Source of the DNA: Modestobacter sp. VKM Ac-2986
GTDB taxonomy: Bacteria > Actinomycetota > Actinomycetes > Mycobacteriales > Geodermatophilaceae
Assembly (NCBI RefSeq): GCF_026967795.1
Contig: NZ_JAPVBH010000007.1
Span: 1 to 64,000 of the forward strand
Direction: 5' to 3'
Length of the DNA: 64,000 nucleotides
Numbering within the stretch: the first letter of the stretch is position 1; every line of letters begins with the position of its first letter. The notes beneath the pieces are model-generated. The model was not told where the DNA came from. It saw only the letters and a program-made list of their open reading frames with translations, and searched no databases. A program made the position numbers and the translations under genes. Shown here piece after piece: positions 20,749-43,206 of the stretch.

Positions 20749-20815
20749 CCCACCGGCACCCGATCGGGTCCACGCGGCACCCGTCCACCGGCCGGTCAGC
20801 TGCTTGACTGAGGTC

Positions 20816-21889: not shown

Positions 21890-21941
21890 AGGGCCGGGGT
21901 GCGCTGACGTGCACAGCTCCGCCTCCTACCCTGGGGTGATC

Positions 21942-23489: not shown

Positions 23490-23514
23490 CCCCGAGAGAC
23501 CCGATCGGAGCCGC

Positions 23515-25020: not shown

Positions 25021-25269
25021 GCGGCCCGACGCCGCGGCCGGCGAGCAGCCCGGGCACCGCCGTCGTCCGGAGGTGGACGTGACCTCTCCGAGGACGACCG
25101 GCACCCGGTGCGGCCGAGCCGTCGCCGGAGGGTGGCCGGCGACGGCGTGACGCCGGTGGGCAGGCCGGTCACCCGCCGACCCGCTCCCCCGACGGCCGGC
25201 CGGGGTGCTCGGCCGGGTCGCCGGGCACGCGCCCGGTCGACCGCCGCGCGGCGGTGGGATGCTCCCGCT

Positions 25270-26151: not shown

Positions 26152-26209
26152 TGAAGGACCCCGTCCCCCTCACCCTTCGCGAGCTCAGGGCGAGCCTCTG
26201 GACGGGGCC
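26152..26209 (+). repeat. intergenic repeat element, copy 1
   Basis: A 58-bp element beginning TGAAGGACCCCGTCC and ending CTCTGGACGGGGCC; 49 of 57 aligned bases from GAAGG onward match copy 2 at 27395-27452. Outer arms GGACCCCGTCC and GGACGGGGCC are near-complementary, giving a fold-back element. It fills the whole gap between the MoxR stop and the VWA gene. Confidence 0.75.
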
Positions 26210-26212
26210 ACC

Positions 26213-27397: not shown

Positions 27398-27452
27398 AGG
27401 ACCCCGTCCCCCTCGTCCCTCGCTGGCTCGGGACGAGCCTCTGGACGGCGCC
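27395..27452 (+). repeat. intergenic repeat element, copy 2
   Basis: The second copy of the element at 26152-26209. Its first three bases are the TGA stop of the VWA gene, and it ends 17 bases before the XdhC start, followed by GGAGGAGG. Confidence 0.75.
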
Positions 27453-27469
27453 GGAGGAGGAGCAGTCGG

Positions 27470-28613: not shown

Positions 28614-28636
28614 GAAGTAGTTCACTGCTAAGGGAA
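28614..28636 (+). promoter_or_regulatory. pyrimidine-cluster operator box A
   Basis: GAAGTAGTTCACTGCTAAGG matches the shared box GARGTAYCTCASYRCTAAGG found before three other transcription units. A TAGGGT -10-like hexamer follows at 28644-28649, upstream of the barbiturase-family gene. Confidence 0.7.
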
Positions 28637-28753
28637 TCGGGGCTAGGGTGGCCGACGAGGTCGCCGACGGTGGGAGCACCGCGGCAGCCCACCTCGACGA
28701 CGGCGTCGGCGCCGTCGGTGACCGCAGCCCCACCTCACCCCCTGGAGAGCGCC

Positions 28754-29857
28754 GTGCCCGCACCGATCGAGGTCCGCAAGGTCCCCCTGCACAACGTCAG
28801 CGACGCCTCCGAGCTGGCGAAGCTGATCGACGACGGCGTCATGGACGCCGACCGGGTGGTCGCCGTCATCGGCAAGACCGAGGGCAACGGCGGCGTCAAC
28901 GACTACACCCGGATCATCGCCGACCGCGCGTTCCGCGAGGTGCTGCTGGCCAAGGGCACCCGCTCCGCCGCCGAGGTCGGGGAGGTCCCGATCGTGTGGT
29001 CCGGTGGCACCGACGGCGTGATCAGCCCGCACGCGACGATCTTCGCGACCCTGCCCGAGGACTCGGTCGAGAAGACCGACGAGCCGCGGCTGACCGTGGG
29101 CTTCGCGATGAGCGAGACGCTGCTGCCGGAGGACATCGGCCGGCTCACGATGGTCGAGAAGGTCGCCGAGGGCGTGCGGCGGGCGATGGCCGAGGCGGGC
29201 ATCACCGACCCGGCCGACGTCCACTACGTGCAGACCAAGACGCCGCTGCTGACCATCGAGACGATCCGTGAGGCGAAGTCGCGCGGCCAGGAGACCTACT
29301 ACGACGAGCCGCACGGCTCGATGGACCTCTCCAACGGCACGACGGCGCTGGGCATCGCGCTGGCGCTGGGCGAGATCGAGATGCCGGAGCAGAAGCAGGT
29401 CATGCGCGACTTCGACCTGTTCAGCGCGGTCGCCTCCTGCTCCTCGGGCGTGGAGCTGGACCGGGCGCAGATCGTCGTCGTCGGCAACGCCCGCGGCCAC
29501 GGCGGCGCCTACCGGATCGGCCACTCGGTCATGACCGACGCGCTGGACTCCGACGGCATCTGGAGCGCCATCCGCAACGCCGGGCTGGACCTGCCCGAGC
29601 GGCCGCACACCAGCGACCTGGGCGACCGGTTGGTCAACGTCTTCCTCAAGTGCGAGGCCGACCCGACCGGCTACGTGCGCGGCCGGCGCAACGCGATGCT
29701 CGACGACTCCGACGTGTTCTGGCACCGGCAGATCAAGGCCACCGTGGGTGGGGTGGCCGCGGCGGTCACCGGCGACCCGGCGGTGTTCGTGTCGGTGGCC
29801 GCGGTGCACCAGGGCCCCTCCGGTGGCGGCCCGGTCGCCGCGATCGTCACGGCCTGA
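28754..29857 (+). CDS. ring-opening amidohydrolase (barbiturase / cyanuric acid hydrolase family)
   Basis: A 367-residue member of the AtzD/barbiturase family, a rare fold built of three similar units each bearing a Ser-Lys pair. Recognisable blocks are [56 protein letters not shown] with one Ser nucleophile, and the C-terminal [12 protein letters not shown]. It hydrolyses a cyclic imide ring; barbiturate to ureidomalonate is favoured over cyanurate because of the neighbouring nucleobase permease and molybdenum hydroxylase. GTG 28754 is chosen with GGAGAG at 28744-28749; the longer open frame has a low-complexity N-terminus. Operator box A lies upstream and a perfect 16-bp terminator follows. 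Confidence 0.9.
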
Positions 29858-29876
29858 CCACCCCGCACGACCCCGC

Positions 29877-29911
29877 CCCGGACCCGGCTGCACGGTGCAG
29901 CCGGGTCCGGG
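29877..29911 (+). terminator. barbiturase-gene terminator
   Basis: Arms 29877-29892 and 29896-29911 are perfectly complementary (16 bp) around CGG, 20 bases after the stop. Confidence 0.8.
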
Positions 29912-30006
29912 CCGTGCCCACCCCGCCGGCCGGCGGTCGCGCAGCACGTCCGGACGACCGTGTCCGGGACGTGTCCTCGCCGGACCGGACCGCGGCAAAC
30001 TGCGAG

Positions 30007-30029
30007 AAGATTTAGCACTGAGGTACTTC
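30007..30029 (-). promoter_or_regulatory. pyrimidine-cluster operator box B (inverted)
   Basis: Read on the minus strand it is GAAGTACCTCAGTGCTAAAT, matching boxes A, C and D. A TAACGT hexamer follows on the plus strand at 30035-30040, so the box sits just upstream of the permease -10. Confidence 0.7.
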
Positions 30030-30160
30030 CCCCGTAACGTGAGCTGTGACACCTTCCGGTGTGCGGCGATCGACGCCCCGGAACCCGCGCCCAGGACCTG
30101 CCTGCGGCGAGCTCCGGACCCCGGTGTCGAGTCCGGTGTCGCACCTGTCGAGGAGGACCT

Positions 30161-31633
30161 GTGGCGTTGGGACTGGGCTGGAAGCTCTACGAGGGCGGCA
30201 AGACCCCGCCGGTGGACGGGGCGGTCGCACCGGACGAGCGGCTGTCGTGGCCGCGCACCATCGGCATCGGCGCCCAGCACGTCGTGTCGATGTTCGGCGC
30301 GACGTTCGTCTTCCCACTGATCATGGGCCTGGACGCCAACCTGGCGATCATGATGAGCGGCGTCGCCACGATCATCTTCCTGCTGGTCGTGCAGGGGAAG
30401 GTGCCCAGCTACCTGGGCACCAGCGCCGCCTTCGTCGGCGGCGTCGTGGCCATCCGGGCCAGCGGCGGCGACTCCGGCGACGTGCTGGGCGCGATCCTGG
30501 TCTCCGGGATCGTGCTGGCGCTCGTCGGTGTGCTGATCAGCGCCCTGGGCCCTCGGATGGTCAACGCCGTGCTCCCCCCGGCGGTCACCGGCGCGGTCGT
30601 CCTGATCATCGGCTTCAACCTCGCACCCGTGGTGGCGAACACCTACTGGCCCCAGGACCAGTGGGTCGGCCTGGCCACGATGACCTTCGTCATCGTCGCG
30701 GCCCTGCTGCTGCGCGGGTTCTGGGCACGCATCTCGATCCTGCTGGGCCTGGTCTTCGGGTACCTGCTGTCCGCGCTGCTGGACGCCACGGCCGGGCCGA
30801 TCACCTCGGTCCTCGGCGGCGCCACGGAGGCCACCACCCACGACCGGCTGGACCTCTCCGGCGTCGGGACGGCGCCCTGGATCGGGCTGCCGACCTTCAC
30901 CGCACCGAGCTTCTCGTTCAACTTCACCCTGCTCGTGCTGCCGGCGGTCATCGCCCTGGTCGCGGAGAACGCCGGCCACGTCAAGGCGGTCGCGGCGATG
31001 ACCAAGCGCGACCTCGACCCGGTCATGGGCCGGGCGATCTTCGCCGACGGCGTGGCCACGGTCGTCGCCACCTCGGTCGGCGGCTCCCCGACGACCACGT
31101 ACGCCGAGAACATCGGCGTCATGGCCGCCACCCGGATCTACTCGACCGCGGCCTACTACGTCGCCGCCGTCGTCGCGCTCCTGCTGGGGCTGTGCCCGAA
31201 GTTCGGCGCCCTGGTCAACGCCGTCCCCGGCGGCGTCCTCGGCGGGATCACGGTGATCCTCTACGGCATGATCGGCCTGCTCGGCGTGAAGATCTGGAAG
31301 GAGAACCGGGTCGACTTCGCCAACCCGATCAACCTGGTGCCGCTGGCCGCCGGGATCATCATCGGGATCGGCAACGTGAACCTGGTGTTCAGCGAGAACT
31401 ACTCCCTCGGCGGCATCGCGCTCGGGTCGATCGTGGCCGTCGCCGGCTGGCACCTGGCCCGGGTCCTGGCCCCCGCCGAGATGCGCACCGCCCTGCTGGC
31501 CGAGGCCGGCCCCTACGGCAGCGGTGAGCCGCTGGCCGACCAGTTCGGCGAGCGGCAGGAGAGCCCCGACCCCTCCTCGCTCGACCAGACCGGCCGCCGG
31601 CGGACGCCCGGTGAGGGCACGGTCGGCAGGTGA
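30161..31633 (+). CDS. NCS2-family nucleobase permease (uracil/xanthine type)
   Basis: A 490-residue membrane transporter with about 14 hydrophobic segments. Family features are QHVVSMFGATFVFPLIMG at the first helix, VPSYLGTSAAFVGG, LPPAVTGAVVLIIGFNLAP, the substrate-binding stretch ALVAENAGHVKAV and the GGSPTTTYAENIGVMAATRIYS signature. These belong to UraA/PbuX-type proton-coupled nucleobase importers; the Glu in VAENAGH and in TYAENIG are the expected ligands. GTG 30161 follows AGGAGG by four bases. Its stop overlaps the start of the FAD-subunit gene (GTGA), linking uptake to the molybdenum hydroxylase. It probably imports uracil or thymine. Confidence 0.94.
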   Translation: MALGLGWKLYEGGKTPPVDGAVAPDERLSWPRTIGIGAQHVVSMFGATFVFPLIMGLDANLAIMMSGVATIIFLLVVQGKVPSYLGTSAAFVGGVVAIRASGGDSGDVLGAILVSGIVLALVGVLISALGPRMVNAVLPPAVTGAVVLIIGFNLAPVVANTYWPQDQWVGLATMTFVIVAALLLRGFWARISILLGLVFGYLLSALLDATAGPITSVLGGATEATTHDRLDLSGVGTAPWIGLPTFTAPSFSFNFTLLVLPAVIALVAENAGHVKAVAAMTKRDLDPVMGRAIFADGVATVVATSVGGSPTTTYAENIGVMAATRIYSTAAYYVAAVVALLLGLCPKFGALVNAVPGGVLGGITVILYGMIGLLGVKIWKENRVDFANPINLVPLAAGIIIGIGNVNLVFSENYSLGGIALGSIVAVAGWHLARVLAPAEMRTALLAEAGPYGSGEPLADQFGERQESPDPSSLDQTGRRRTPGEGTVGR

Positions 31634-32505
31634 AGCCGGCCCCCTTCGCCTACGCCGACCCGCGCACCCTCGACGAGGCCCTGGCGGTCCTGTCGGAGGA
31701 GGGCGAGGGCGCCAAGGTGCTGGCCGGCGGGCAGTCACTGCTGCCGCTGCTCAACATGCGGCTGGCCGCACCCACCACGCTCGTCGACATCAACCGGGTC
31801 CCCGGCCTCGACCGGATCGAGGCCGGGGAGGCCGGGGTCCGGGTGGGCGCCCTGGTGCGGCACGCCGCGTTGCTGCGGTCGGCCGAGGCCAGCGCCGTCC
31901 AGCCGCTGCTGGCCCGGGCGACGGCCAACGTCGCGCACCCCGCCATCCGCAACCGCGGGACGACGGTCGGCTCGATCGCGCACGCGGACCCCTCCGGGGA
32001 GATGACCGCGGTGCTCGCGCTCACCGGCGGCTCGGTGACCGTGGCCACGCCCGACGGGTCGTCGTCGGTGGACTGGGCGGACTTCTTCCTCGGGCCGCTG
32101 GAGACCGCGGTGCACGGCCCGGCCGTGGTGACCTCGGCCTTCTTCCCCGCGCTGGCGCCCCGGTCGGGCACGGCGTTCGCCGAGGTGTCGCGGCGCAAGG
32201 GCGACTACGCCGTCTGCGGGACCGGCGTCGTGGTGACCCTGGACGAGGACCGGCGGGTGGCCTCGGCCCGGGTCGCCCACATCTCCGTGGGGCTGGTGCC
32301 CGAGGTGCACGACCTGACCGACGCCGTGGCCGGCCGACCGGTGGACACCGCCGACTGGGCCGCCGCAGGGGCGATGGCACAGGGACTGGTCGACCCCGAC
32401 GGCGACCTGCACGCCAGCGCCGACTACCGCCGGCTGCTGGTCGGCGCCCTCACCACCCGCACCCTGGCCTCGGCGGCGGCCGAGGCGCTGGAGCGCTCCG
32501 CGTGA
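31630..32505 (+). CDS. molybdenum hydroxylase FAD-binding subunit (CoxM-like)
   Basis: A 291-residue medium subunit. FAD motifs are AGGQSLLPLLNMRLA and HPAIRNRGTTVGSIAHADPSGE, both typical of CoxM/XdhB-type proteins. It passes electrons from the 2Fe-2S subunit to an acceptor. Its GTG overlaps the permease stop, and the small and large subunits follow, in M-S-L order. In this context it is proposed to serve a uracil/thymine dehydrogenase rather than CO dehydrogenase. Confidence 0.93.
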   Translation: MKPAPFAYADPRTLDEALAVLSEEGEGAKVLAGGQSLLPLLNMRLAAPTTLVDINRVPGLDRIEAGEAGVRVGALVRHAALLRSAEASAVQPLLARATANVAHPAIRNRGTTVGSIAHADPSGEMTAVLALTGGSVTVATPDGSSSVDWADFFLGPLETAVHGPAVVTSAFFPALAPRSGTAFAEVSRRKGDYAVCGTGVVVTLDEDRRVASARVAHISVGLVPEVHDLTDAVAGRPVDTADWAAAGAMAQGLVDPDGDLHASADYRRLLVGALTTRTLASAAAEALERSA

Positions 32506-32566
32506 CACCTGCACCCCCCACCGCACTGCACCGCACCACACCGCTCGAGCAGCCAGGAGGCCGGCC

Positions 32567-33091
32567 ATGAGCACCACCACCGAACGGACCGTCACGGTGA
32601 CGGTCAACGGGGTCCCGCAGCAGGTCACCGTCCCGGTCCGGCGGCTGCTGTCGGACGCGCTGCGCCACGACCTGGGCCTGACCGGCACCCACTCCGGTTG
32701 CGAGCACGGCGTCTGCGGGTCCTGCACCGTGCTGGTCGACGGCGCACCGGTGCGGTCCTGCCTGGTGCTCGCCGTGCAGGTCGACGGTTCCTCGGTGACC
32801 ACGGTCGAGGGGCTGAGCCGGTCCGACCACCAGGGGGGTGAGGTGCTGCACCCGATCCAGGAGGCGTTCCGCGAGTGCCACGCCCTGCAGTGCGGCTACT
32901 GCACGCCGGGCTTCCTCACCACCCTCGCCGCCGGACTGGACGCCCGCGACCCCGCGGTCCCGATCACCGAGGACGAGGTCGACGAGCTGGTCGGCGGCAA
33001 CCTCTGCCGCTGCACCGGCTACGCCAACATCAAGAAGGCCTGCCGGCACGCCGCCGAGCAGATGCGCACCGCCGCGGAGGCGACCCGGTGA
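32567..33091 (+). CDS. molybdenum hydroxylase 2Fe-2S subunit (CoxS-like)
   Basis: A 174-residue small subunit with two [2Fe-2S] domains. The N-terminal plant-type cluster uses CEHGVCGSC and a fourth Cys in VRSC; the C-terminal all-helical cluster uses CGYCTPGF and CRCTGYANI. It relays electrons from the molybdenum centre to FAD. ATG 32567 follows GGAGG with a short spacer. The stop overlaps the large-subunit start (GTGA). There is a 61-base gap after the FAD subunit. Confidence 0.95.
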   Translation: MSTTTERTVTVTVNGVPQQVTVPVRRLLSDALRHDLGLTGTHSGCEHGVCGSCTVLVDGAPVRSCLVLAVQVDGSSVTTVEGLSRSDHQGGEVLHPIQEAFRECHALQCGYCTPGFLTTLAAGLDARDPAVPITEDEVDELVGGNLCRCTGYANIKKACRHAAEQMRTAAEATR

Positions 33092-35502
33092 CCACCAAGC
33101 TGTTCGGCGAGCCGGTCCGCCGGCGCGAGGACGCCCGGCTGATCGTCGGTGCGGGCCGCTACCTCGACGACATCGGCGCCGACGCGTACGCCGCGGCCTT
33201 CGTCCGCAGCCCGTACGCGCACGCCCGCGTGGTCGACATCGACGTCTCCCCCGCGCTCGACGTCGACGGGCTGCTGGCGGTCTACACCTACGAGGACCTC
33301 ACCGGACCGATGGCCGAGCCGCTGCCGGTGCTCATCCCGCACCCGCAGCTCACCCACGCCCGCACCGGGTACACCCTCGTCCGCGACGTCGCCCACCACG
33401 TCGGGGAGGCCGTGGTCATGGTGGTCGCCGTCGACCGGTACGTCGCCGAGGACGCCGCCGCGCTGATCGAGGTCACCTGGGAGGAGCTGCCCGTGGTGGT
33501 CGGCGTCGACGCCGCCGAGGCCGCAGTGCACGCCGTCCACCCCGACGTCCCGGACAACGTGGCCGCCCGGCACCACCAGGAACGCGGGGACGTCGAGGCC
33601 GCGCTGGCCGCCTCGGCGCACACGCTGAGCTTCACCCAGTACTTCGAGCGCAGCGCGTCCATGCCGATGGAGGGCAAGGGCGTGCACGCCCGCTGGGACG
33701 CCGACGACTCCGCCCTGCGCGTGCACTCCAGCACCCAGGCCTCGACCTCGGTGCGGGCGGCGATCGCGGCCAAGCTGGAGCTGTCGCTGGAGAAGGTCGA
33801 GGTCATCGCCCCCGACGTCGGCGGCGGGTTCGGCGTCAAGATCATGCACCCGTGGCCCGAGGAGCTGCTGGTCCCGATGGCGGCCATCAAGCTCGGCCAC
33901 GAGGTGAAGTGGGTCGAGGACCGCCGGGAGCACTTCATCTCCAGCGCCCACGAGCGCCAGCAGCGCCAGGAGGTCGCCGTCGGCTACGACGACGACGGTC
34001 GGATCACCGCCTTGGACGTGCTGGTCTGGCACGACAACGGGGCGTACACGAACTACGGGATCATCGTCCCGATCAACACCGCGACCCAGCTGTGCGGGCC
34101 CTACGACGTCCCGGTCTACCGGGCACGGGTCAACAGCGTCTACACGAACACCGTGCTGGTCACCCCCTACCGCGGGGCCGGGCGGCCGCAGGGCACCTTC
34201 GTCATGGAACGCACCATGGACCGGATCGCCCAGGAGCGCGGCCTCGACCGGCTCGAGGTGCGGCGGCGCAACCTCATCCAGAACGACCAGTTCCCCTACG
34301 ACTGGGGCATGACGTTCCAGGACGGCCGGCCGCTGGTCTACGACTCCGGCAACTACCCCGGCCTGGTCGACAAGCTCGAGGCGCTGGTCGACTGGCCCGG
34401 CCTGGAGACCCGCCGGGCCGAGGCCGCCACCCGGGGGAAGCTGCTGGGCGCCGGCATGGCGATGTACGTCGAGGGCACCGGCCCCGGGCCCTACGAGGGC
34501 GCGCACGTGGAGGTGCTCGGCAGCGGCAAGGTGCTGGTCTCCACCGGGCTCACCTCGCAGGGCCAGGGCCACGAGACCGTGTTCGCCCAGCTGGCGGCGT
34601 CCGAGCTCGGCGTGCCACTGGAGGACGTCGAGGTGACCACCGGTGACACCCGGCGGTTCGGCTACGCGGTGGGCACCTTCGCCTCCCGGGCCGCGGTGGT
34701 CAGCGGCAACGCGGTCGCACTGGCGGCCAAGGGCGTGCGGGAGAAGGCGCTGCGGATCGCCGCGGAGCTGCTGGAGGCCGACCCCGGCGACCTGGAGATC
34801 GACGAGGGCCTGGTCCAGGTCAAGGGCACGCCGGGCGCCTCGATCCCGCTGCGCACCGTCGCCGTGCTGTCCAACCCGCTGCGGTACGCCTTCGACGAGG
34901 CGGCCCGGCAGGCCACCCAGTTCGCCGGACCGGGCGACGACTCCAAGCCGCCGATCGCGGTCGGGGACTCCCCCGGCCTGGAGTACACCGACTACTACTC
35001 CCCGCTGCGCTCGACGTTCGCCGCCGGCGCCCACGCGGCGGTGGTCGAGATCGACCCGGCGACCTGGGAGATCGACGTCGTCCAGTACGCCGTGGTGCAC
35101 GACTGCGGCAACGTGGTGAACCCGATGATCGTCGAGGGCCAGGTGCAGGGCGGGGTGGCCCAGGGCGTGGGCGGGGCGCTGTACGAGCGGATGGCCTACG
35201 ACCGCGACGGCCAGCTGCAGAACGCCTCGTTCATGGACTTCCTCATGCCCTACGCCAGCGAGGTGCCCGACGTCGACATCGACCACCAGGAGACGCCCTC
35301 GCCGCTGAACCCGCTGGGCATCAAGGGCGCCGGCGAGGCCGGGGTGATCCCCGGCTCGGCCGCGATCGCCTCGGCCATCGAGGACGCCGTGGGCCGGCGG
35401 ATCGCCGCGATGCCGATCAGCCCCACCGAGCTCTACGACCTGATGCGCTCCGACGGCGAACAGGTGCCCCGCCTCCCCACTGCGACAGGAGTCCCCGCGT
35501 GA
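33088..35502 (+). CDS. molybdopterin-binding large subunit of a xanthine-dehydrogenase-type hydroxylase
   Basis: An 804-residue catalytic subunit. The cofactor-binding blocks are FGEPVRRREDARLIVGAGRYLDD, GGGFGVKIMHPWPEE, the active-site loop TPYRGAGRPQGTFVMER and the C-terminal GIKGAGEAGVIPG carrying the catalytic Glu. True CO dehydrogenases (form I) have an AYRCSFR loop with a Cys that binds Cu; here the loop is PYRGAGR, so this is a form-II/xanthine-dehydrogenase-like hydroxylase. In an operon with a nucleobase permease and near a barbiturase-family gene, uracil/thymine hydroxylation to barbiturate is the best guess. Maturation genes are at 25270-28591. Confidence 0.92.
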   Translation: MTTKLFGEPVRRREDARLIVGAGRYLDDIGADAYAAAFVRSPYAHARVVDIDVSPALDVDGLLAVYTYEDLTGPMAEPLPVLIPHPQLTHARTGYTLVRDVAHHVGEAVVMVVAVDRYVAEDAAALIEVTWEELPVVVGVDAAEAAVHAVHPDVPDNVAARHHQERGDVEAALAASAHTLSFTQYFERSASMPMEGKGVHARWDADDSALRVHSSTQASTSVRAAIAAKLELSLEKVEVIAPDVGGGFGVKIMHPWPEELLVPMAAIKLGHEVKWVEDRREHFISSAHERQQRQEVAVGYDDDGRITALDVLVWHDNGAYTNYGIIVPINTATQLCGPYDVPVYRARVNSVYTNTVLVTPYRGAGRPQGTFVMERTMDRIAQERGLDRLEVRRRNLIQNDQFPYDWGMTFQDGRPLVYDSGNYPGLVDKLEALVDWPGLETRRAEAATRGKLLGAGMAMYVEGTGPGPYEGAHVEVLGSGKVLVSTGLTSQGQGHETVFAQLAASELGVPLEDVEVTTGDTRRFGYAVGTFASRAAVVSGNAVALAAKGVREKALRIAAELLEADPGDLEIDEGLVQVKGTPGASIPLRTVAVLSNPLRYAFDEAARQATQFAGPGDDSKPPIAVGDSPGLEYTDYYSPLRSTFAAGAHAAVVEIDPATWEIDVVQYAVVHDCGNVVNPMIVEGQVQGGVAQGVGGALYERMAYDRDGQLQNASFMDFLMPYASEVPDVDIDHQETPSPLNPLGIKGAGEAGVIPGSAAIASAIEDAVGRRIAAMPISPTELYDLMRSDGEQVPRLPTATGVPA

Positions 35503-36221
35503 ACCTCGACGGCAGTGCGGTGCTCAGTGCCCCACCCGAGGACGTGTGGTCGGTGATCACCGACCCGGCCGTGCTGGCCCGCACCATCCCCGGCTGCCTG
35601 TCCCTCGACCAGGTCGGCGAGGACAGCTACACGATGACCGTCTCGGCGGGGGTGGGCGCCATCCGCGGCACCTACGCCGGCGAGGTGCGGCTGGCCGACA
35701 TGCAGCGGCCCAGCTCCTACGTCATGCACGCCAGCGGGTCCGGCGGACCGGGGTCGGTGCGGGCGACGGTGCAGATCGGGCTCGCCCCCGCCGGCGAGGG
35801 CACCGAGCTGACCTGGTCGGCGGACGCCGTCGTCGGCGGCGCGGTCGCCGGGGTCGGCCAGCGGATGATCTCCGGGGTCGCCAAGCGGATGGCCGGACAG
35901 TTCTTCTCCGCGATCGACGGGGAGCTCACGGACCCGGGTCAGGCGGCCGAGGCCGCGTCCGACAGCGGGTCGGAGCCGTCGGCGGTGGCGAGCGCGGCGG
36001 CGGTCTCCTCGACCGACGTGGCGGGGCAGCCCCCGTCGTCCCAGCCCTCGTCGTCGCCGTCCGCTCCCCCGGCCCGGCGCGCGCCGTCGGCCCGGCCGGT
36101 GGCGGCCTCGGGCGGGTGGGTGCCCGGCGAGGCGCGGCCGCTGCTGGTCGGCGCGGCCGGCGGCGGGCTGCTGACGCTGCTCGGCGTCTGGGTGGGCTCG
36201 CGCCTCGGCCGCAGCCGCTGA
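35499..36221 (+). CDS. CoxG-like SRPBCC protein with C-terminal membrane anchor
   Basis: A 240-residue protein. Residues about 1-150 form an SRPBCC/CoxG domain (LDGSAVLSAPPEDVWSVITDPAVLARTIPGCLSLDQVGED). A Ser/Pro/Ala-rich linker (about 150-205) then leads to a hydrophobic anchor LLVGAAGGGLLTLLGVWVGSRLGRSR at the C-terminus. CoxG is known to recruit CO dehydrogenase to the membrane; this may do the same for the hydroxylase here. The GTG overlaps the large-subunit stop. A perfect hairpin follows, ending the permease-to-CoxG unit. Confidence 0.88.
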   Translation: MNLDGSAVLSAPPEDVWSVITDPAVLARTIPGCLSLDQVGEDSYTMTVSAGVGAIRGTYAGEVRLADMQRPSSYVMHASGSGGPGSVRATVQIGLAPAGEGTELTWSADAVVGGAVAGVGQRMISGVAKRMAGQFFSAIDGELTDPGQAAEAASDSGSEPSAVASAAAVSSTDVAGQPPSSQPSSSPSAPPARRAPSARPVAASGGWVPGEARPLLVGAAGGGLLTLLGVWVGSRLGRSR

Positions 36222-36224
36222 CGC

Positions 36225-36260
36225 GGTCCGGTGCGGCCGCCCACGCGGCCGCACCGGACC
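36225..36260 (+). terminator. terminator after the CoxG-like gene
   Basis: Arms 36225-36240 and 36245-36260 form a perfect 16-bp stem with a CCAC loop, four bases after the stop. Confidence 0.8.
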
Positions 36261-36286
36261 GGCAGTCCCCGCGCCCCCTTCCGCCC

Positions 36287-36309
36287 GAGGTATCTCACCA
36301 CTAAGGTAA
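36287..36309 (+). promoter_or_regulatory. pyrimidine-cluster operator box C
   Basis: GAGGTATCTCACCACTAAGG, the shared box. TAAGGT (36302-36307) within it lies seven bases before the ATG at 36315, so the box likely overlaps a leaderless promoter. Confidence 0.7.
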
Positions 36310-36314
36310 ATCCC

Positions 36315-38399
36315 ATGGGGACACCCGCCCGCGCACGTCAGATCCGCATCGGCATCGACACCGGCGGGACGTTCACCGACGTCGTCGCCGTGGACGAGGA
36401 GACCGGCCGCACGGCCACGACCAAGACGCCCTCCACCCCGGCCGACCCGGCCGAGGGCTTCCTCACCGGCGTCCGCAAGGTGCTGGACCTGCTGGGGCTG
36501 GACGGCTCGAGCGTCACCGCGGTCAGCCACGGGACGACGGTGGCCACCAACCAGCTGCTGGAGGGCAAGCTCGACCGGATCGGCTTCATCACCACCGAGG
36601 GCTACGAGTCGGTGCTGGAGATCGCCCGGCAGTCGGTGCCCGACGGCTACGGCAACAGCTACTTCTGGGTCAAGCCGCCGCGGATCGTCCCGGCCGACCT
36701 GGTGCGCACGGTGCGCGGCCGGCTCGACGTCACCGGCGCCGAGGTGCGCCCCTTCTCCCGCGAGGACGCCGTCGCGGCCGCCCGGTTCTTCCGCGACGCT
36801 GGCATCACCACCCTCGGCGTCTGCTTCCTGCACTCCTACGCCGACGACGCCCACGAGCGCGCGATGCTCGAGGTGCTGCGCGAGGAGTGCCCGGACGCCG
36901 TCGTGTCGATCTCCAGCCAGGTGCTGCGCGAGTACCGCGAGTACGAGCGGTCGGTCACCACGCTGGTCGACGCCGCGGTGAAGCCGAAGGTCGGCGCCTA
37001 CGTGCGCAACATCCGGCACCGGCTGGACGAGCTCGCGCCGGGCGTGCCGTTCTACGTGATGAAGAGCAACGGCGGCGTGCTGTCGGCCGCAGAGGTGGTG
37101 CACCAGCCGATCACCACGATGCTGTCGGGGCCTGCCGCCGGCGCGCTGGGCGCGGCCCTGATCGCCGGGGTCGCCGGCTTCGACCGGGTGCTCACCTGCG
37201 ACGGCGGCGGCACCTCGACCGACGTCACGGTGGTCGTCGACGGCCAGCCCACGCTCACCACCGAGGGCTCGGTCGGTGACTACCCGAGCAAGATCCCGAT
37301 GATCGACGTCGTCACCGTCGGCGCCGGTGGCGGGTCGATCGCCTGGCTGTCGCCGGAGGGCACGCTCAAGGTGGGGCCGAAGTCGGCGGGCGCCGACCCG
37401 GGCCCGATCTGCTACGCCAACGGCGGCGACCAGCCCACCGTCACCGACGCGCACGTCGTCCTGGGCCGGATCCCCCCGCACCTGCTCGGCGGGGAGATCC
37501 CGCTGTCGGTCGACGCGGCCCGCACCGGGCTCGAGGCGCTCGGCGCCACGCTCGGGCTCACGGTCGAGCAGGCCGCGACCGGCATCCTGGAGATCTCGGC
37601 GTGGAACCAGGCCAACGCGCTGCGGCAGGTGACCGTGGCCCGCGGCCTCGACGTCCGCGACTTCACCCTCACCACCTTCGGCGGCTCGGGCTCGCTGCTG
37701 GCCTGCCGGCTGATGGACGTCCTCGGCCTGCCGCGCACGCTGGTGCCGCCCAACCCGGGCAACGTCAGTGCCTTCGGCCTGCTCACCGTCGACGTCCGCA
37801 ACGACTACGTGCAGACGATGGTCTCCCGGCACACCGACCTGGACCTCGACCGGCTGCGGTCGATCTACGTCGACCTCGAGGCGCAGGCGGCCGCCGCCCT
37901 CGCCGGGGAGGGCTTCGGGCCCGACGCCCAGCGGCTACAGCGCAACGCCGACCTGCGCTACGTCGGGCAGGCCTTCGAGGTGCGGGTGCCCGTCGCCGAC
38001 GGCGTGCTGGACGCCGCGGCCGTCGAGCAGGCGGCGCAGGCCTTCCACGCCGCGCACCGCCAGCTGTACGGCTACGACTTCTCGGCCGACCCGCGCCAGG
38101 CGGTGGAGTGGGTGAACCTGCGGGTGACCGGCATCGGCCCGATCCGCCGTCCCGACGTCGTCGAGCTGCCGGCCCGGGACGGCGGGCCCGACCGGGCGGT
38201 CACCGGACGGCGCCCGGTCTTCTTCGACGACTGGGTCGACACCCCGACCTACGACCGGACGGCACTGGCCCCCGGTGACGTGGTCCCGGGCCCGGCGATC
38301 GTCGAGGAGTTCGGCTCGACCGTGCCGGTGCACCCCGGCTTCTCCGCCGCCGTCGACGCCCACGGCAACCTGCTGCTGACCCGAGAGGACGTGCGATGA
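36315..38399 (+). CDS. hydantoinase/oxoprolinase family protein, A subunit
   Basis: A 694-residue ATP-binding subunit of the HyuA/5-oxoprolinase family. The phosphate-binding motif IGIDTGGTFTDVVAVDEETG is at the N-terminus, followed by VSHGTTVATNQLLEGK, a middle block YVMKSNGGVLSAAEV, and DGGGTSTDVTVV. These enzymes cleave cyclic amides with ATP and need the B subunit encoded next (ATGA overlap). In this cluster the substrate could be a pyrimidine-derived ring or a ureido compound, but that is inference. The start is supported by the leaderless TAAGGT element in operator box C. Confidence 0.92.
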   Translation: MGTPARARQIRIGIDTGGTFTDVVAVDEETGRTATTKTPSTPADPAEGFLTGVRKVLDLLGLDGSSVTAVSHGTTVATNQLLEGKLDRIGFITTEGYESVLEIARQSVPDGYGNSYFWVKPPRIVPADLVRTVRGRLDVTGAEVRPFSREDAVAAARFFRDAGITTLGVCFLHSYADDAHERAMLEVLREECPDAVVSISSQVLREYREYERSVTTLVDAAVKPKVGAYVRNIRHRLDELAPGVPFYVMKSNGGVLSAAEVVHQPITTMLSGPAAGALGAALIAGVAGFDRVLTCDGGGTSTDVTVVVDGQPTLTTEGSVGDYPSKIPMIDVVTVGAGGGSIAWLSPEGTLKVGPKSAGADPGPICYANGGDQPTVTDAHVVLGRIPPHLLGGEIPLSVDAARTGLEALGATLGLTVEQAATGILEISAWNQANALRQVTVARGLDVRDFTLTTFGGSGSLLACRLMDVLGLPRTLVPPNPGNVSAFGLLTVDVRNDYVQTMVSRHTDLDLDRLRSIYVDLEAQAAAALAGEGFGPDAQRLQRNADLRYVGQAFEVRVPVADGVLDAAAVEQAAQAFHAAHRQLYGYDFSADPRQAVEWVNLRVTGIGPIRRPDVVELPARDGGPDRAVTGRRPVFFDDWVDTPTYDRTALAPGDVVPGPAIVEEFGSTVPVHPGFSAAVDAHGNLLLTREDVR

Positions 38400-40267
38400 G
38401 CGAGACGTCGAGCAAGGTCCAGGCCGACCCGGTGCTCGTCGAGATCGTCGCGGGGACGCTGGCGGCGATCGAGCGCGAGGTGGAGACGTCGATCGGGCGC
38501 ACCTCCCGCTCGCCGATGATCCGGGACGCGCACGACTTCCGGGCCGGCATCCACGACCGGCAGATGCGCAAGCTCACCGGGCGGTCGTACTCCGCGCTCG
38601 TGCAGCCGGTGGTGCGCGACTACCCGATCGCGACGATGGCCCCCGGCGACGTCTACTTCCACAACGACGTCTACCTCTCCGAGGGCGGGATCGGCCACCT
38701 GCCCGACCTGTGCGTCACGGTGCCGGTGTTCGCCGACGTCGACGGCGAGCCCACCGTCGTGGCGTTCGTGCAGGCCTTCGGCCACCACGACGACATCGGC
38801 GGCGCGGTGCCCGGCTCCATGCCGTCGGCGGCGACCAGCGTGTTCGAGGAGGGGCTGATGGTCCCGCCGATCAAGCTGTGGGACCGCGGGGTGCCCAACG
38901 AGAGCGCGCTGAAGATCATGACCCGCAACTCGCGGATGCCGGACTCGCTGGCCGCGGACCTGGACGCGGAGTGCTCGGCCTGCCTGGCCGGCGCCCGGCG
39001 GCTCGGCGAGCTGTTCGACCGCTACGGCGTCGAGGCGATCGAGGCCTGCTTCGAGGCCGGCCTGACCAGTTCGACGGAGGTCTACCGACGGGAGGTGCTG
39101 TCCCAGATCCCCGACGGCACCTACGTCTGGGAGGACTACGCCGAGCACGACGGCGTCGACGAACCGCAGCTGCACCGGCAGCGGATCACCCTGACCATGG
39201 ACTCGGCCGCCGACGTCCCGCTGGTCATCGACTTCACCGGCACCGGGCCGCAGGCCAAGGGCCCGATCAACCACTGCGGCGACTACGCCGACGGCAACTT
39301 CCTGAAGAAGTGGCTGGCCCCGATCCTGCGCAACCTCGCCGCCACGCCGGAGCGGATGGCGCAGCTGGACGTCAACGAGGGCGTCGTCCCGCTGATCGAG
39401 ATGCGCTTCCCGGAGAAGGGCACGCTGCTCACGCCGATCTTCCCGGCACCCACCAATGCCAGGACCTTCGTCATCCTGCGCCTGCTCGGGGTGCTGGCCG
39501 GGGTGCTGGCCAAGGCCACGGGGGGGAGGATGCCGGCCGACCAGGAGACGATCCGCTACACCGGCGTCTACGGCACCGACGCCGACGGCGAGCCCTACCT
39601 GATGCGCGAGGTGCTCGGCGGCGGGTCGGGCGGGCGCTACTACGCCGACGGGGAGGACACGATCCACGTCGTCCCCGACTCCCGGAACCTGCCCACGGAG
39701 TTCACCGAGTCGCGGTTCCCGCTGCGGATCGAGCGGCTCGCGCTGGCGCAGGACTCCGGCGGGCCGGGCCGGTACCGCGGTGGTTGTGGCTACGAGAAGG
39801 ACATCCGGGTGCTGCGCGACGCGCACTTCATGTCCATCGCCGACCGCTCGATCCTGTCCTGCTGGGGCGTCAACGGCGGCAGGGCGGGCCGGCCGTTCTC
39901 GATCACCGTCGACCCCGGCGGGCCCGACGAGCACGAGGTCGACGCACTCGCCGACGCCGAACCGCTCAAGGCCGGCACCGTGGTGCGGGTGCGGACGACG
40001 GGCGGCGGTGGCTGGGGCGACCCGCTGGAGCGCCCGGTCGACGAGGTGCTCCAGGACATCGCCTGGCGCAAGATCAGCGTCGCCGGTGCCCGCCGCGACT
40101 ACGGCGTGGTGGTGGCCGAGGACGGCTCGGTCGACCAGGCGGCCACCGACCGGCTGCGGGCCGAGGTCCGGGACGGCCGGACCGACGTCGAGCCGTTCTT
40201 CGACCGCGGCCCCGGCTACGCGCTGCTGTCCGGCGGCGCCTCGGCCAACGAGTACGACTTCCTCTGA
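38396..40267 (+). CDS. hydantoinase B/oxoprolinase family protein, B subunit
   Basis: A 623-residue HyuB-type subunit. Typical blocks are GRTSRSPMIRDAHDFRAGI, AMAPGDVYFHNDVYLSEGGIGHLPDL, FGHHDDIGGAVPGSM and the C-terminal GGGSGGRYYADGEDT and RGGCGYEKDI. It forms the catalytic complex with the A subunit, whose stop it overlaps. Closely related complexes include N-methylhydantoinase and acetophenone carboxylase; sequence alone does not decide among them. An NmrA-like gene follows after four bases. Confidence 0.92.
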   Translation: MSETSSKVQADPVLVEIVAGTLAAIEREVETSIGRTSRSPMIRDAHDFRAGIHDRQMRKLTGRSYSALVQPVVRDYPIATMAPGDVYFHNDVYLSEGGIGHLPDLCVTVPVFADVDGEPTVVAFVQAFGHHDDIGGAVPGSMPSAATSVFEEGLMVPPIKLWDRGVPNESALKIMTRNSRMPDSLAADLDAECSACLAGARRLGELFDRYGVEAIEACFEAGLTSSTEVYRREVLSQIPDGTYVWEDYAEHDGVDEPQLHRQRITLTMDSAADVPLVIDFTGTGPQAKGPINHCGDYADGNFLKKWLAPILRNLAATPERMAQLDVNEGVVPLIEMRFPEKGTLLTPIFPAPTNARTFVILRLLGVLAGVLAKATGGRMPADQETIRYTGVYGTDADGEPYLMREVLGGGSGGRYYADGEDTIHVVPDSRNLPTEFTESRFPLRIERLALAQDSGGPGRYRGGCGYEKDIRVLRDAHFMSIADRSILSCWGVNGGRAGRPFSITVDPGGPDEHEVDALADAEPLKAGTVVRVRTTGGGGWGDPLERPVDEVLQDIAWRKISVAGARRDYGVVVAEDGSVDQAATDRLRAEVRDGRTDVEPFFDRGPGYALLSGGASANEYDFL

Positions 40268-40271
40268 GCCG

Positions 40272-41111
40272 ATGATCGTCGTCACCGCCGCCGGGGGACG
40301 CACGGGGCTGGCCGTGGTCGCCGCGCTGCGCGCCCGCGGTTGCGCCGTCCGCGCCCTGGTGTCGTCCCCGCGCGCCTCGGCGGCGCTGACGGCACTGGGC
40401 GCGGAGGTGGTGCAGGCCGACCTCACCGACGTCGACTCCCTGCCGGCGCGGCTGGCCGGGGCACGGGCGGTCCACCTGGTCTGGCCCAACTTCGACGTCC
40501 GGGAGGAGTCGGGCTCCCTCGCCGTCCTCGCCGCCGCCCGGCGGGCCGGCGTGGGCCGGCTGGTCCACCACTCGGTCCTGCACCCGCAGGTCCGGGCCAT
40601 GCCCCACCACGCCGCCAAGGAACGGGTCGAGGAGGCGGTCGTGGCCGGCGGGGTGCCCTGGCGCATCCTGCGGCCCTGCGCCTACGCCGACAACCTCGAC
40701 GCGGGGCTGGCCGACGTCGCCGCGACCGGGCGCTTCCCGAGCCCCTGGGGGCTCACCCGCGGTCAGTCGCTGGTCGACCTGCGCGACGTCGCCGAGGTGG
40801 CCGCCGTGCTGCTCACCGAGGACGGCCTGGACGGCGGCACCGTCGAGGTGGCCGGCCCTGAACCGCTCACCGCCCCGGCGATCGCCCGGCTGCTCGCCGA
40901 GCGGCTGGACCGCGAGGTCACCGCGGTGGACGTCGTCCCCGCCGGGCCGGTGCCCCCGGTGTCGGAGTACGCCGCGCACTGCCGCCGGCTGATGTTCGAC
41001 TGGTACCGGGAGCACGGGTTCGCCGGCAGCCCCTGGGCACTCGAGGCCCTGCTGGGCCGCCCGGCCCGGACGCTGGCCGACCACCTCGCCGACCAGCAGA
41101 TCTCTCGGTGA
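40272..41111 (+). CDS. NmrA-like NAD(P)-binding oxidoreductase
   Basis: A 279-residue atypical short-chain dehydrogenase. The N-terminal Rossmann motif is MIVVTAAGGRTGLAVVAAL; the mid region has RLVHHSVLHPQ and the C-terminal domain resembles NmrA/TMR sensors (MFDWYREHGFAGSPWALEALLGRPARTLADHL). The catalytic Tyr-x-x-x-Lys of classical SDRs is not evident, so it may be a redox sensor or a reductase on a small substrate. It follows hyuB by four bases and probably belongs to that transcript. Confidence 0.85.
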   Translation: MIVVTAAGGRTGLAVVAALRARGCAVRALVSSPRASAALTALGAEVVQADLTDVDSLPARLAGARAVHLVWPNFDVREESGSLAVLAAARRAGVGRLVHHSVLHPQVRAMPHHAAKERVEEAVVAGGVPWRILRPCAYADNLDAGLADVAATGRFPSPWGLTRGQSLVDLRDVAEVAAVLLTEDGLDGGTVEVAGPEPLTAPAIARLLAERLDREVTAVDVVPAGPVPPVSEYAAHCRRLMFDWYREHGFAGSPWALEALLGRPARTLADHLADQQISR

Positions 41112-41151
41112 CCACCCCCGCCGAACGGGCCGGACCCGGGCACCGCGTCGT

Positions 41152-41157
41152 TAGCAT
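41152..41157 (+). promoter_or_regulatory. -10-like TAGCAT for the MarR gene
   Basis: TAGCAT ends seven bases before ATG 41165, with no ribosome site between. A leaderless promoter is likely, giving MarR its own transcript. Confidence 0.45.
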
Positions 41158-41164
41158 GACCGCC

Positions 41165-41680
41165 ATGGCGCAGGCGGACGCGGACGCGGTGGACCTGATC
41201 CTGGAGCAGTGGGGGCGGGAACGGCCGGACCTGGACTGCTCCCCCATGGGCGTCATCGCCCGCGTCACCCAGGCCCAGCGCGAGGTCTACCTCGCCCAGC
41301 GGGAGACCTTCGCCCGGCACGGCCTCGACGCCGCCGCCTTCGACGTCCTGGCCGCGCTGCGCCGGGCGGGACGGCCCTACCAGCTCACCCCGACGGCGCT
41401 CATGCGCACCGCGCTGGTCACCTCGGGTGCGATCACGCAGCGGCTGGACCGGCTCGAGGAGAAGGGCCTCATCTCCCGTGAGCCCAGCGAGGACGACGGC
41501 CGCGCGGTCCTGGTCACGCTGACCGAGCTCGGCGGGCAGGCCCTGGACGCCGCGCTGCCCGACCACCTGGAGACCGAGCGCCGCCTCCTCGCCGGCCTGA
41601 GCGCGGAGGACCAGCAGCAGCTGGCCGGCCTGCTGCGCCGGCTGCTCGTCACCCTCGGGCGCACGCCCGCCGCGCCCTGA
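41165..41680 (+). CDS. MarR-family transcriptional regulator
   Basis: A 171-residue winged-helix regulator. The DNA-binding region shows AAFDVLAALRRAGRPYQLTPTALMRTALVTSGAITQRLDRLEEKGLISREPSEDDGRAVLVTLTELG, the standard MarR helix-turn-helix and wing (DGR motif). MarR dimers bind short palindromes and are released by small phenolic or metabolite ligands. It sits inside the pyrimidine region, between the hyuAB unit and the amidase, and the shared box there contains the near-palindrome ACCTCAGCGCTAAGGT. It is therefore the best regulator candidate for those boxes, by inference. Confidence 0.93.
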   Translation: MAQADADAVDLILEQWGRERPDLDCSPMGVIARVTQAQREVYLAQRETFARHGLDAAAFDVLAALRRAGRPYQLTPTALMRTALVTSGAITQRLDRLEEKGLISREPSEDDGRAVLVTLTELGGQALDAALPDHLETERRLLAGLSAEDQQQLAGLLRRLLVTLGRTPAAP

Positions 41681-41706
41681 CCCGGTCGGCGTCCCGAACC
41701 CCGCGC

Positions 41707-41729
41707 GAGGTACCTCAGCGCTAAGGTGT
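41707..41729 (+). promoter_or_regulatory. pyrimidine-cluster operator box D
   Basis: GAGGTACCTCAGCGCTAAGG, the most symmetric of the four boxes: ACCTCAGCGCTAAGGT matches its reverse complement at 14 of 16 positions. TAAGGT at 41722-41727 may be the -10, giving a leader of about 50 bases before the amidase gene. Confidence 0.75.
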
Positions 41730-41781
41730 CGGGGCGACCCGCTCCGGGCCCGGCACTGCCGACTGACCAGGGATGCCGACG

Positions 41782-43206
41782 ATGACTCCAGTCCACGAAG
41801 ACCTGTGCACCCGACCGGCGACCGAGCTGGCCGCCCTCCTCCGGGACGGGCAGGTGTCCGCGCGTGAGCTGATGGACGCCCACCTGGACCGGATCGACCA
41901 GCTGAACCCCGGGCTCAACGCGATCGTGACGCTGGACGCCGACGGCGCCCGGGCCGCGGCCGACGCCGCCGACGCCGCGCTGGCCGCCGGCGAGGACGTC
42001 GGCCCGCTGCACGGCCTGCCGGTGGCCCACAAGGACACCCACCTCACCGGCGGGATGCGCACGACGTTCGGCTCGCCGCTGCACGCCGACACCGTGCCCG
42101 CCCACGACGAGCTCGTCGTCGCCCGGCTCAGGGCCGCCGGCGCCATCCGGGTCGGCAAGACCAACACCCCCGAGTTCGCGGCCGGCTCGCACACCTTCAA
42201 CACCGTCTTCGGCGTGACGCACAACCCCTACCGCCACGGCCTGTCCGCCGGCGGCTCCTCCGGCGGGGCAGCCGCCTCGCTGGCCGCCGGCCTGGTGCCC
42301 CTGGCCGAGGGCGGCGACATGGGCGGGTCGCTGCGCAACCCGGCGGCCTTCAACAACGTCGTCGGGCTGCGGCCCACGCCCGGCCGGGTGCCCTCGCATC
42401 CCGCGGCGGTCGGGTGGTCGCAGATGCAGGTGCAGGGCCCGCTGGGCCGCACCGTGGCCGACGTGGCGCTGCAGCTGTCGGCCCTGGCCGGGCCCGACCC
42501 GCGCGTCCCCATCTCCCTCGGCGACGACGGGGCCTCCTTCGCGGCGGCGCTGCCCGAGCGACTGGACGGCCTGCGGATCGGCTGGGCACCGGACCTGGGC
42601 GGCCGCATCCCGGTCGACCCGGCGATCCTGGAGGTCCTGGGCGCCTCGGTCCGGGTGTTCGAGGACCTCGGCGCCCGGGTGGACGAGGCGTGCCCCGACC
42701 TGACCGACGCCCAGCAGGTGTTCGAGGTGCTGCGCAGCTGGCAGTTCCAGGCCACCTTCGGCGAGCGGGTGCGCCGCACGCCCGAGTCGTTCAAGGAGTC
42801 GATCCGCTGGAACGTCGAGGTCGGCGCGAAGCTGACCGGTGCCGACGTGGGCCGCGCCGAGCTCGCGCACACGAAGCTGTACGAGCGCGTCGTCGCCTGG
42901 TTCGACCGGTACGACGTCCTGCTCGCCCCCACCACGCAGGTGCTCCCCTTCCCGGTGGAGGTGGAGTACCCGACCGAGGTCGCCGGCGTGCCGCAGGAGG
43001 ACTACCTGGGGTGGATGCGCTCGTGCACGCTCATCACCCCGACCGGCTGCCCGGCGCTGTCGGTGCCCGGCGGCTTCACCGCCGACGGCCTGCCCGTGGG
43101 CCTGCAGGTCGTCGGCCCGCCGCGGGGCGACCGGCGGGTGCTGGAGGTCGGCCACGCGTTCGAGCAGGCCACCGGCTTCGGACGACGCCGCCCCCCGCTG
43201 GGGTGA
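41782..43206 (+). CDS. amidase-signature family hydrolase (candidate ureidomalonase)
   Basis: A 474-residue amidase-signature enzyme with the Ser-cisSer-Lys triad: Lys in GLPVAHKDTHLTGG and Ser residues in LSAGGSSGGAAASLAAGLVPLAEGGDMGGSLRNPAAF. ATG 41782 is preferred because AGGG sits nine bases upstream; ATG 41773 is in frame but too close to it. It is cytosolic and hydrolyses a linear amide or ureide. Shared operator box D links it to the barbiturase gene. The next pathway step after barbiturase is hydrolysis of ureidomalonate to urea and malonate, so a ureidomalonase role is proposed but not demonstrated. Confidence 0.88.
   Translation: MTPVHEDLCTRPATELAALLRDGQVSARELMDAHLDRIDQLNPGLNAIVTLDADGARAAADAADAALAAGEDVGPLHGLPVAHKDTHLTGGMRTTFGSPLHADTVPAHDELVVARLRAAGAIRVGKTNTPEFAAGSHTFNTVFGVTHNPYRHGLSAGGSSGGAAASLAAGLVPLAEGGDMGGSLRNPAAFNNVVGLRPTPGRVPSHPAAVGWSQMQVQGPLGRTVADVALQLSALAGPDPRVPISLGDDGASFAAALPERLDGLRIGWAPDLGGRIPVDPAILEVLGASVRVFEDLGARVDEACPDLTDAQQVFEVLRSWQFQATFGERVRRTPESFKESIRWNVEVGAKLTGADVGRAELAHTKLYERVVAWFDRYDVLLAPTTQVLPFPVEVEYPTEVAGVPQEDYLGWMRSCTLITPTGCPALSVPGGFTADGLPVGLQVVGPPRGDRRVLEVGHAFEQATGFGRRRPPLG

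Follow-up and report, generated by a model that had tools for sequence, protein, structure and literature searches.

A barbiturase-linked molybdenum hydroxylase and a candidate operon for oxidative pyrimidine catabolism in Modestobacter sp. VKM Ac-2986

Which genes do actinobacteria use to oxidize pyrimidines? The oxidation of uracil and thymine to barbiturates has been known since the 1950s, and the enzymes that act before and after barbiturase are numbered as uracil/thymine dehydrogenase (EC 1.17.99.4) and ureidomalonase (EC 3.5.1.95). To our knowledge, no sequence has been assigned to the dehydrogenase, and in the open-access literature, as far as its accessible text goes and with subscription papers outside this coverage, no paper apparently assigns a gene to either enzyme. 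The question is raised by a run of genes in the first 64 kb of contig 13 of Modestobacter sp. VKM Ac-2986 (genome, 4.19 Mb; G+C, 74%), the whole of which is referred to below as the window; among the named relatives found, Modestobacter muralis is the closest (97% identity in the barbiturase, Bar, and 99% in the hydroxylase large subunit, CoxL). Reading frames and family scans give, on the + strand and in this order, coxD, coxE, xdhC, bar, ncs2, coxM, coxS, coxL, coxG, hyuA, hyuB, nmrA, marR, and an amidase gene. All of the genes listed in a preliminary description of this DNA were found, all on that strand; the maturation genes that it named (XdhC and MoxR/VWA) exist as well, but upstream of the span then proposed, at 25108-28591. 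Its observation is confirmed, and the case for it has become stronger than the one it made. Gene content, family membership, specificity residues, linkage, and co-inheritance are observed, and every reaction is inferred from them; we read the run as a whole, with considerable confidence, as an oxidative pyrimidine catabolism operon.

The ring-opening enzyme is, judged by its sequence, a barbiturase. Its closest solved relative is PDB 5hwe, 'Barbiturase' (632.7 bits), with 294 of 370 residues identical (79.5%), and the top cyanuric acid hydrolase among the solved structures reaches 320.7 bits. Two family models, PF09663 (485 bits) and TIGR02714 (567.7 bits), place it in the AtzD/TrzD family, the GTG at 28754 agrees with the start of its homologues, and the residues of the Ser/Lys dyad are kept, including the FVSVAA columns, in alignments to solved relatives judged by eye. 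The Bar clade, Group VI of the AtzD/Bar family, is marked by Asn195, His321, Lys325, Val345, and Ser/Ala346 in AtzD numbering (PMC3758960, in the part available). All five Bar-type residues are present here as N222, H352, K356, V376, and A377 (numbering of the 395-aa open reading frame), and NHKV followed by A or S recurs in 76 of 79 aligned rows, a count in which the window is included and some loci were entered twice; among the other three, one reads IHKVA and two distant sequences (41%) deviate. Cyanuric acid hydrolases are marked instead by two conserved arginines (R194 and R324 of AtzD) and the motif SGGXEXQGPXGGGP (PMC9118981, in excerpt); in Bar, Asn and Lys replace the arginines and the motif is not matched. 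The glutamine that a barbiturase subgroup is said to carry at the matching arginine (PMC4051656, in the portion available) is not present in the aligned Bar of the window.

These data also bear on a cyanuric acid or triazine cluster, in which an amidase of the AtzE type would act after an AtzD-type opening. NF052395, the equivalog model for cyanuric acid hydrolase, does pass on Bar (470.6 against a cut-off of 360), and the amidase scores 236 bits against the AtzE model, under its cut-off of 425.75, but the Bar signature and the scores to solved enzymes (632.7 against at most 320.7 bits) speak for barbiturate, and neither the hydroxylase nor the uracil permease has an evident role on cyanurate, so that such a cluster is hardly credible. 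The identification as a barbiturase rather than a cyanuric acid hydrolase, as first proposed, is thus upheld by the five residues and the identity to 5hwe.

CoxM, CoxS, and CoxL form a hydroxylase with the features of the xanthine oxidase family, namely FAD, 2Fe-2S, and Mo-binding subunits and a Glu in a GE motif. In the large subunit, the loop VTPYRGAGRPQG stands at the position of AYRCSFR in CO dehydrogenase, with the catalytic Glu kept, and the AYXCSFR loop with the Cu-binding Cys, typical of Form I Mo-Cu CO dehydrogenase, was not found in the CoxL of the window. PYRGAGR occurs in the window and in 26 of the 30 related sequences scanned; three of the other four are without a motif of that form, and one (locus L102) has PYRGFGY. 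The preliminary description had relied on this loop to read a molybdenum hydroxylase rather than a CO dehydrogenase, and the loop and the absence of its copper-cysteine counterpart agree with it. Among solved structures, CoxL matches quinoline 2-oxidoreductase (1t3q) best (470 bits), followed by 6-hydroxypseudooxynicotine dehydrogenase (405) and CO dehydrogenases (at most 403). PYRGAGR has been called atypical in Saccharomonospora viridis and Streptosporangium roseum (PMC4053681, in part), both of which stand within the Bar clade list of PMC3758960, as far as that text was available. For form II enzymes, activity is described as unresolved, and CoxG is cited as a menaquinone-binding protein (PMC13240472, in part).

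An aerobic carbon-monoxide dehydrogenase in an incidental neighborhood would nonetheless suit the database label: NCBIfam NF040766, a model of the type 'exception', names CoxL an aerobic CO dehydrogenase at 1415 bits (cut-off, 950), of the 120 homologues listed out of 7990, most of those with an NCBI name carry the same one, and CoxD, CoxE, and CoxG adjoin. However, the copper-binding cysteine loop is absent, the equivalog TIGR02416 scores 442 bits against a cut-off of 991, and co-inheritance with Bar is near-perfect, which together leave this explanation very little probability. The NF040766 label on the Bar-linked CoxL clade is likely a widespread misannotation.

That co-inheritance was followed in two samples. 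The named-genome set was drawn from the best 80 of 562 Bar relatives, from which 50 loci were chosen, mostly from isolates or large contigs, and 49 genomes were searched whole; the phylum set is an even draw of 396 genomes, including that of the window, in which Bar was counted above 500 bits and a CoxL ortholog above 1000 bits. In the phylum set, 22 genomes have Bar, 24 have the CoxL ortholog, and 21 have both (Fisher p ~1e-30, uncorrected for kinship). A CoxL ortholog, at 61-99% identity, is present in 48 of the 49 named Bar genomes, where the sole two further matches reported lie at 44% and 42%, and in 46 of these 48 it shares a contig with bar at a median distance of 12.6 kb (range, 5.7-45.8 kb). 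Among the 20 non-window genomes of the phylum sample with both genes, 10 have them on one contig, never more than 36 kb apart, and the other 10 are in many contigs. Orthologs occur in 69 of the 71 Bar-clade genomes that form the base for the CoxL, HyuB, AllG, and carbamate kinase counts, a match anywhere in the genome being counted. The CoxL clade itself groups 20 rows with support of 99/99, of which 18 come from genomes with Bar and two from genomes in which no Bar was found. Because the linkage is conserved across many genera, as the preliminary description had suggested checking, it is not chance, and because CoxMSL is inherited together with barbiturase across actinobacteria, it is very likely the uracil/thymine dehydrogenase; by linkage only, it is the best gene candidate for that activity.

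The permease fits this assignment of substrate. It matches the uracil permease among PDB entries at 207 bits and the uric acid-xanthine permease at no more than 56 bits, and the RutG model gives 370 bits, under its cut-off of 758.65. What had been described as an NCS2 nucleobase permease can thus be narrowed to the uracil type, with UraA as the closest relative and uracil uptake as the presumed function.

Besides the two model hits above, several observations weigh against the pathway, the distribution of the amidase described below among them. One genome, G044 (Pseudonocardia acaciae), has Bar but no CoxL ortholog was found in it (20 of 38 candidates scored), and no Mo hydroxylase is among the called genes in the 19 kb around its bar. 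Conversely, CoxL occurs without Bar in G062, G077, and G427, all in many contigs, and a sister CoxL clade in G081, G184, and G206 adjoins HyuAB and FdrA with no Bar found, so that the substrate of the wider clade need not be uracil. The hydroxylase might then act on another N-heterocycle, such as xanthine, a hydantoin-like ring, or a xenobiotic pyrimidine, which converges on barbiturate or a similar ureide, with uracil as a minor substrate; the sister clade and quinoline 2-oxidoreductase as the best PDB match are in keeping with this, but the clade supported at 99/99 is tied to a Bar with the barbiturate-type signature (18 of 20 rows), the permease is UraA-like, and R. erythropolis adds a uracil phosphoribosyltransferase. 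We hold this alternative to be improbable, though less so than CO or cyanurate, and retain CoxMSL as the uracil/thymine dehydrogenase candidate.

Some of these exceptional loci are of interest by themselves. In G081, G184, and G206 (L111-L113), the order is CoxM-(S)-L-HyuAB-FdrA, and two of the three show both AllG and AllH-like matches; by Pfam, L112 also has an AMP-binding ligase and an amidase, and L113 has CoxG. These operons possibly serve another N-heterocycle route, with HyuAB as the ring opener. The locus of G044 (L101), the only examined Bar genome without a Mo hydroxylase seen nearby, comprises NCS2, PucR, AllG, FdrA, AllH, a kinase, and two amidohydrolase-family genes. G353, from another family and without the CoxL ortholog, has, a few kb downstream of bar, a coxMSL set of a different kind, whose CoxL is 30% identical; there (L102:3248-11778), bar, AllH, AllG, and the distant coxMSL (PYRGFGY) form one run, and an independent recruitment of a Mo hydroxylase is possible. 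L093 and L100 (G230 and G346) hold a distant AtzD-family enzyme (41-42%) without the Bar or the cyanurate signature in this alignment, and that of G230 directly adjoins a PYRGAGR CoxL.

The pathway may be pictured as follows. Uracil would enter through the UraA-like NCS2 symporter, and CoxMSL, matured by CoxD, CoxE, and XdhC, would hydroxylate it at C6, beside the ring N1, with oxygen from water, to yield barbiturate; thymine would probably be converted to 5-methylbarbiturate. Electrons are expected to pass from Mo through [2Fe-2S] and FAD to menaquinone, the last step probably via CoxG, and Bar would open barbiturate to ureidomalonate. In the lineage of the window, the amidase most likely would then give malonate and urea, from which urease would free ammonia, while in most other Bar-bearing actinobacteria, AllFGH-like proteins and carbamate kinase would probably split ureidomalonate phosphorolytically.

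It is at this third step that the preliminary reading, otherwise sustained for the barbiturase, the Mo hydroxylase, the uracil-type permease, and their linkage, is less secure. An amidase-signature gene is indeed in the cluster, and its putative role as the ureidomalonase is plausible; its best solved relative is GatA, with malonamidase E2 at only 74 bits. Yet no more than 46 of 77 genomes have a match (E <= 1e-75), and the 24 other Geodermatophilaceae (G002-G025) carry theirs at a distance of hundreds of kb from bar or on a separate contig. An amidase is near bar in the window, G001, and three Rhodococcus/Rhodococcoides genomes, and the cluster of M. muralis includes one as well as that of the window; the bar-adjacent Rhodococcus amidase shares only 41-43% identity, and in G026, a better match (50%) is located elsewhere. 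It also occurs in the kinase-bearing islands L051, L054, L058, L073, and L074 and is therefore not a simple replacement of the kinase module. Given this patchiness, HyuAB might carry out the third step and the amidase serve an unrelated purpose, as HyuB (E <= 1e-150) is found in 67 of the 71 Bar genomes; however, HyuA resembles hydrolases of cyclic amides rather than of linear ureides, and an amidase is in the cluster in all five genomes without AllG and kinase, though also in several with kinase. This alternative is unlikely, though the most serious of the four, and the amidase remains our candidate in the window lineage.

What the preliminary description missed is that AllG and carbamate kinase are common in relatives. 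A carbamate-kinase-like gene stands beside bar in 74 of 80 loci, a neighbor of bar is called AllG by Pfam, and AllG and the kinase occur in 66 and 65 of the 71 Bar-clade genomes, respectively; the frequencies of HyuB, AllG, and kinase cover Bar genomes only, and as AllG was sought genome-wide, some copies may serve allantoin. In G124, from another family, PucR, bar, NCS2, coxM, coxL, amidase, kinase, AllH, FdrA, AllG, hyuA, hyuB, and CaiB lie within 29 kb in two adjoining stretches. Both AllG and kinase are absent from the window genome, where a whole-genome search gave no match, and from M. muralis and three Rhodococcus/Rhodococcoides genomes (5 of 71). In E. coli, AllFGH, which acts together with carbamate kinase, cleaves oxalurate with phosphate into oxamate and carbamoyl phosphate (PMC11326118, in part). 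Since ureidomalonate is oxalurate plus one CH2, malonamate and carbamoyl phosphate would be the products in most islands, and the presence of AllG and kinase in most Bar genomes suggests, by this analogy, phosphorolysis of ureidomalonate with ATP recovery, not urea release. The classical route ends in malonic acid and urea (PMC3758960, as far as available), and given that the window lineage and Rhodococcus are without AllG and kinase, this textbook route may be the exception among Bar actinobacteria. Urease is present in the window's own genome and in 5/5 Bar genomes without AllG and kinase against 30/66 others, one of the 30 faint (p=0.025), a weak contrast that comprises only two independent lineages.

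AllH was detected in seven Bar islands (L102 and L103, and by tblastn L088, L090, L096, L101, and L120) but in none of the 31 Geodermatophilaceae loci, AllG and FdrA being present in most of these; in L003-L032, AllG adjoins FdrA without detectable AllH, unlike other Bar islands. This weakens phosphorolysis, and the AllH of this family has either diverged, is located elsewhere, or is not needed. A wider reading would hold that most actinobacteria use AllFGH-like phosphorolysis (malonamate and carbamoyl phosphate, from which the kinase makes ATP) and not ureidomalonase, that CoxMSL is the uracil/thymine dehydrogenase feeding menaquinone, that HyuAB opens 5-methylbarbiturate, and that a return to urea took place in the window lineage, with loss of the module and assembly of amidase and HyuAB into a compact operon. 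Its odds are lowered by the missing AllH of Geodermatophilaceae, and as a package we offer it only tentatively, with doubt outweighing belief.

The hydantoinase A/B pair, first regarded as an addition, is present but is a core partner, given that HyuB accompanies nearly all Bar genomes. HyuA and HyuB have the domains of ATP-dependent hydantoinases/oxoprolinases, and HyuA matches N-methylhydantoinase (7hk5, 475 bits) and 5-oxoprolinase (402 bits) among solved structures, both of which are ATP-dependent cyclic-amide hydrolases. HyuAB beside CoxL without Bar in the sister clade suggests that it opens a ring, and because Bar is reported to be specific for barbiturate, 5-methylbarbiturate would be a natural choice of substrate; that HyuAB opens such a second ring is speculative. 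Within 10 kb flanks of bar, HyuAB occurs at 27 and AllG/FdrA at 28 of 80 loci with none shared; the apparent mutual exclusion was rejected as a flank artefact, as most genomes have both genome-wide. NmrA and MarR genes lie near HyuAB in two of four Geodermatophilaceae hyuAB stretches, MarR alone in a third; L105 and L107 are loci with NmrA near HyuAB.

Table 1. Features of the gene run, with coordinates in the window
Feature	Coordinates	Strand	Basis
CoxD/MoxR-like AAA+ ATPase, presumed hydroxylase maturation	25108..26151	+	Pfam AAA_5; NCBIfam MadB_ATPase 271 bits, under cut-off 475
CoxE-like VWA protein, presumed maturation partner	26141..27397	+	Pfam VWA_CoxE E=2e-54
XdhC/CoxI-type cofactor maturation factor	27470..28591	+	Pfam XdhC_C, XdhC_CoxI
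Barbiturase (Bar)	28670..29857, probable start GTG 28754	+	PF09663 485 bits; PDB 5hwe 632.7 bits
NCS2 nucleobase symporter, UraA/RutG-like, presumed uracil uptake	30059..31633	+	PDB uracil permease 207 bits
CoxM, FAD subunit of Mo hydroxylase	31630..32505	+	Pfam FAD_binding_5, CO_deh_flav_C
CoxS, [2Fe-2S] subunit	32567..33091	+	Pfam Fer2_2, Fer2
CoxL, Mo subunit, candidate uracil/thymine dehydrogenase	33088..35502	+	PYRGAGR loop; Glu in GIKGAGEAG; orthologs in 69/71 Bar genomes
CoxG-like protein, presumed membrane/menaquinone link	35499..36221	+	Pfam COXG 95.6 bits
HyuA, subunit of ATP-dependent cyclic-amide hydrolase	36231..38399	+	PDB 7hk5 N-methylhydantoinase 475 bits; Pfam Hydantoinase_A
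HyuB subunit	38396..40267	+	Pfam Hydantoinase_B
NmrA-type NAD(P)-binding protein, start unsettled	40275..41111	+	Pfam NmrA in ORF 39780-41111
MarR-family regulator	41108..41680	+	Pfam MarR_2
Amidase-signature hydrolase, candidate ureidomalonase (or malonamidase)	41773..43206	+	Pfam Amidase 324 bits; PRK07486 515 bits, cut-off 465

As for the history of the locus, it seems that these genes were brought together in a single run in the window lineage and that AllG and the kinase were lost there; in G002-G025, HyuB either is separated from bar by 21-79 kb or belongs to a different contig. Elsewhere in Geodermatophilaceae, bar may sit near ribosomal RNA (rRNA) genes: in the Klenkia locus L012, the near end of a 16S gene is 5.4 kb before bar, and the ends of 24 draft contigs from this family fall 5.2-7.1 kb upstream of the gene. 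In L005, one of these contigs, the initial 1.5 kb has no rRNA match, as expected from a contig break at an rRNA operon. In L012:3073-4592, kinase and bar have a divergent rRNA operon nearby, and a break at a similar distance is seen in L005, L017, and L022, among others. The bar of the window is at a different place than in L012-type loci, near LigD-type genes, a ligase and a primase-polymerase encoded separately at 20804-24582, upstream of the island.

These results provide concrete candidate genes for the uracil/thymine oxidation activity known since the 1950s and give the CODH-like clade a testable function, while the NCBI CO dehydrogenase label could inflate counts of CO oxidizers. They further suggest that many actinobacteria recover ATP and supply the quinone pool when they degrade pyrimidines.

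Compared with known systems, the Form II/CODH-like CoxL enzymes share the CoxMSL plan, the CoxD/E/G partners, and a GAGR-type loop, but the CoxL of the window has proline instead of alanine in the loop and is tied to Bar. Quinoline 2-oxidoreductase (1t3q) has the same domains and catalytic Glu, whereas its substrate and gene neighbors differ. With the oxamate carbamoyltransferase module of E. coli, AllFGH-AllK (PMC11326118, in part), most Bar genomes share AllG and carbamate kinase, and FdrA adjoins AllG; there, however, the enzyme acts on oxalurate, which has one CH2 fewer than ureidomalonate, and AllG and kinase are absent from the window genome. The closest parallel is the pathway of Rhodococcus erythropolis JCM 3132 (uracil/thymine dehydrogenase, barbiturase, ureidomalonase), whose barbiturase belongs to the clade of the window. 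The barbiturase paper reportedly places a uracil phosphoribosyltransferase gene upstream of bar, and in R. erythropolis NBRC 15567, a single stretch holds uracil phosphoribosyltransferase, bar, amidase, NCS2, coxMSLG, and hyuAB. The strain CCM2595 is the same as JCM3132, and the barbiturase paper is cited for its pyrimidine use (PMC3961730, in part). As in the window, no AllG or carbamate kinase was found in Rhodococcus; the gene order differs, with PucR, CaiB, and AccDA-like genes in Rhodococcus and MarR in the window.

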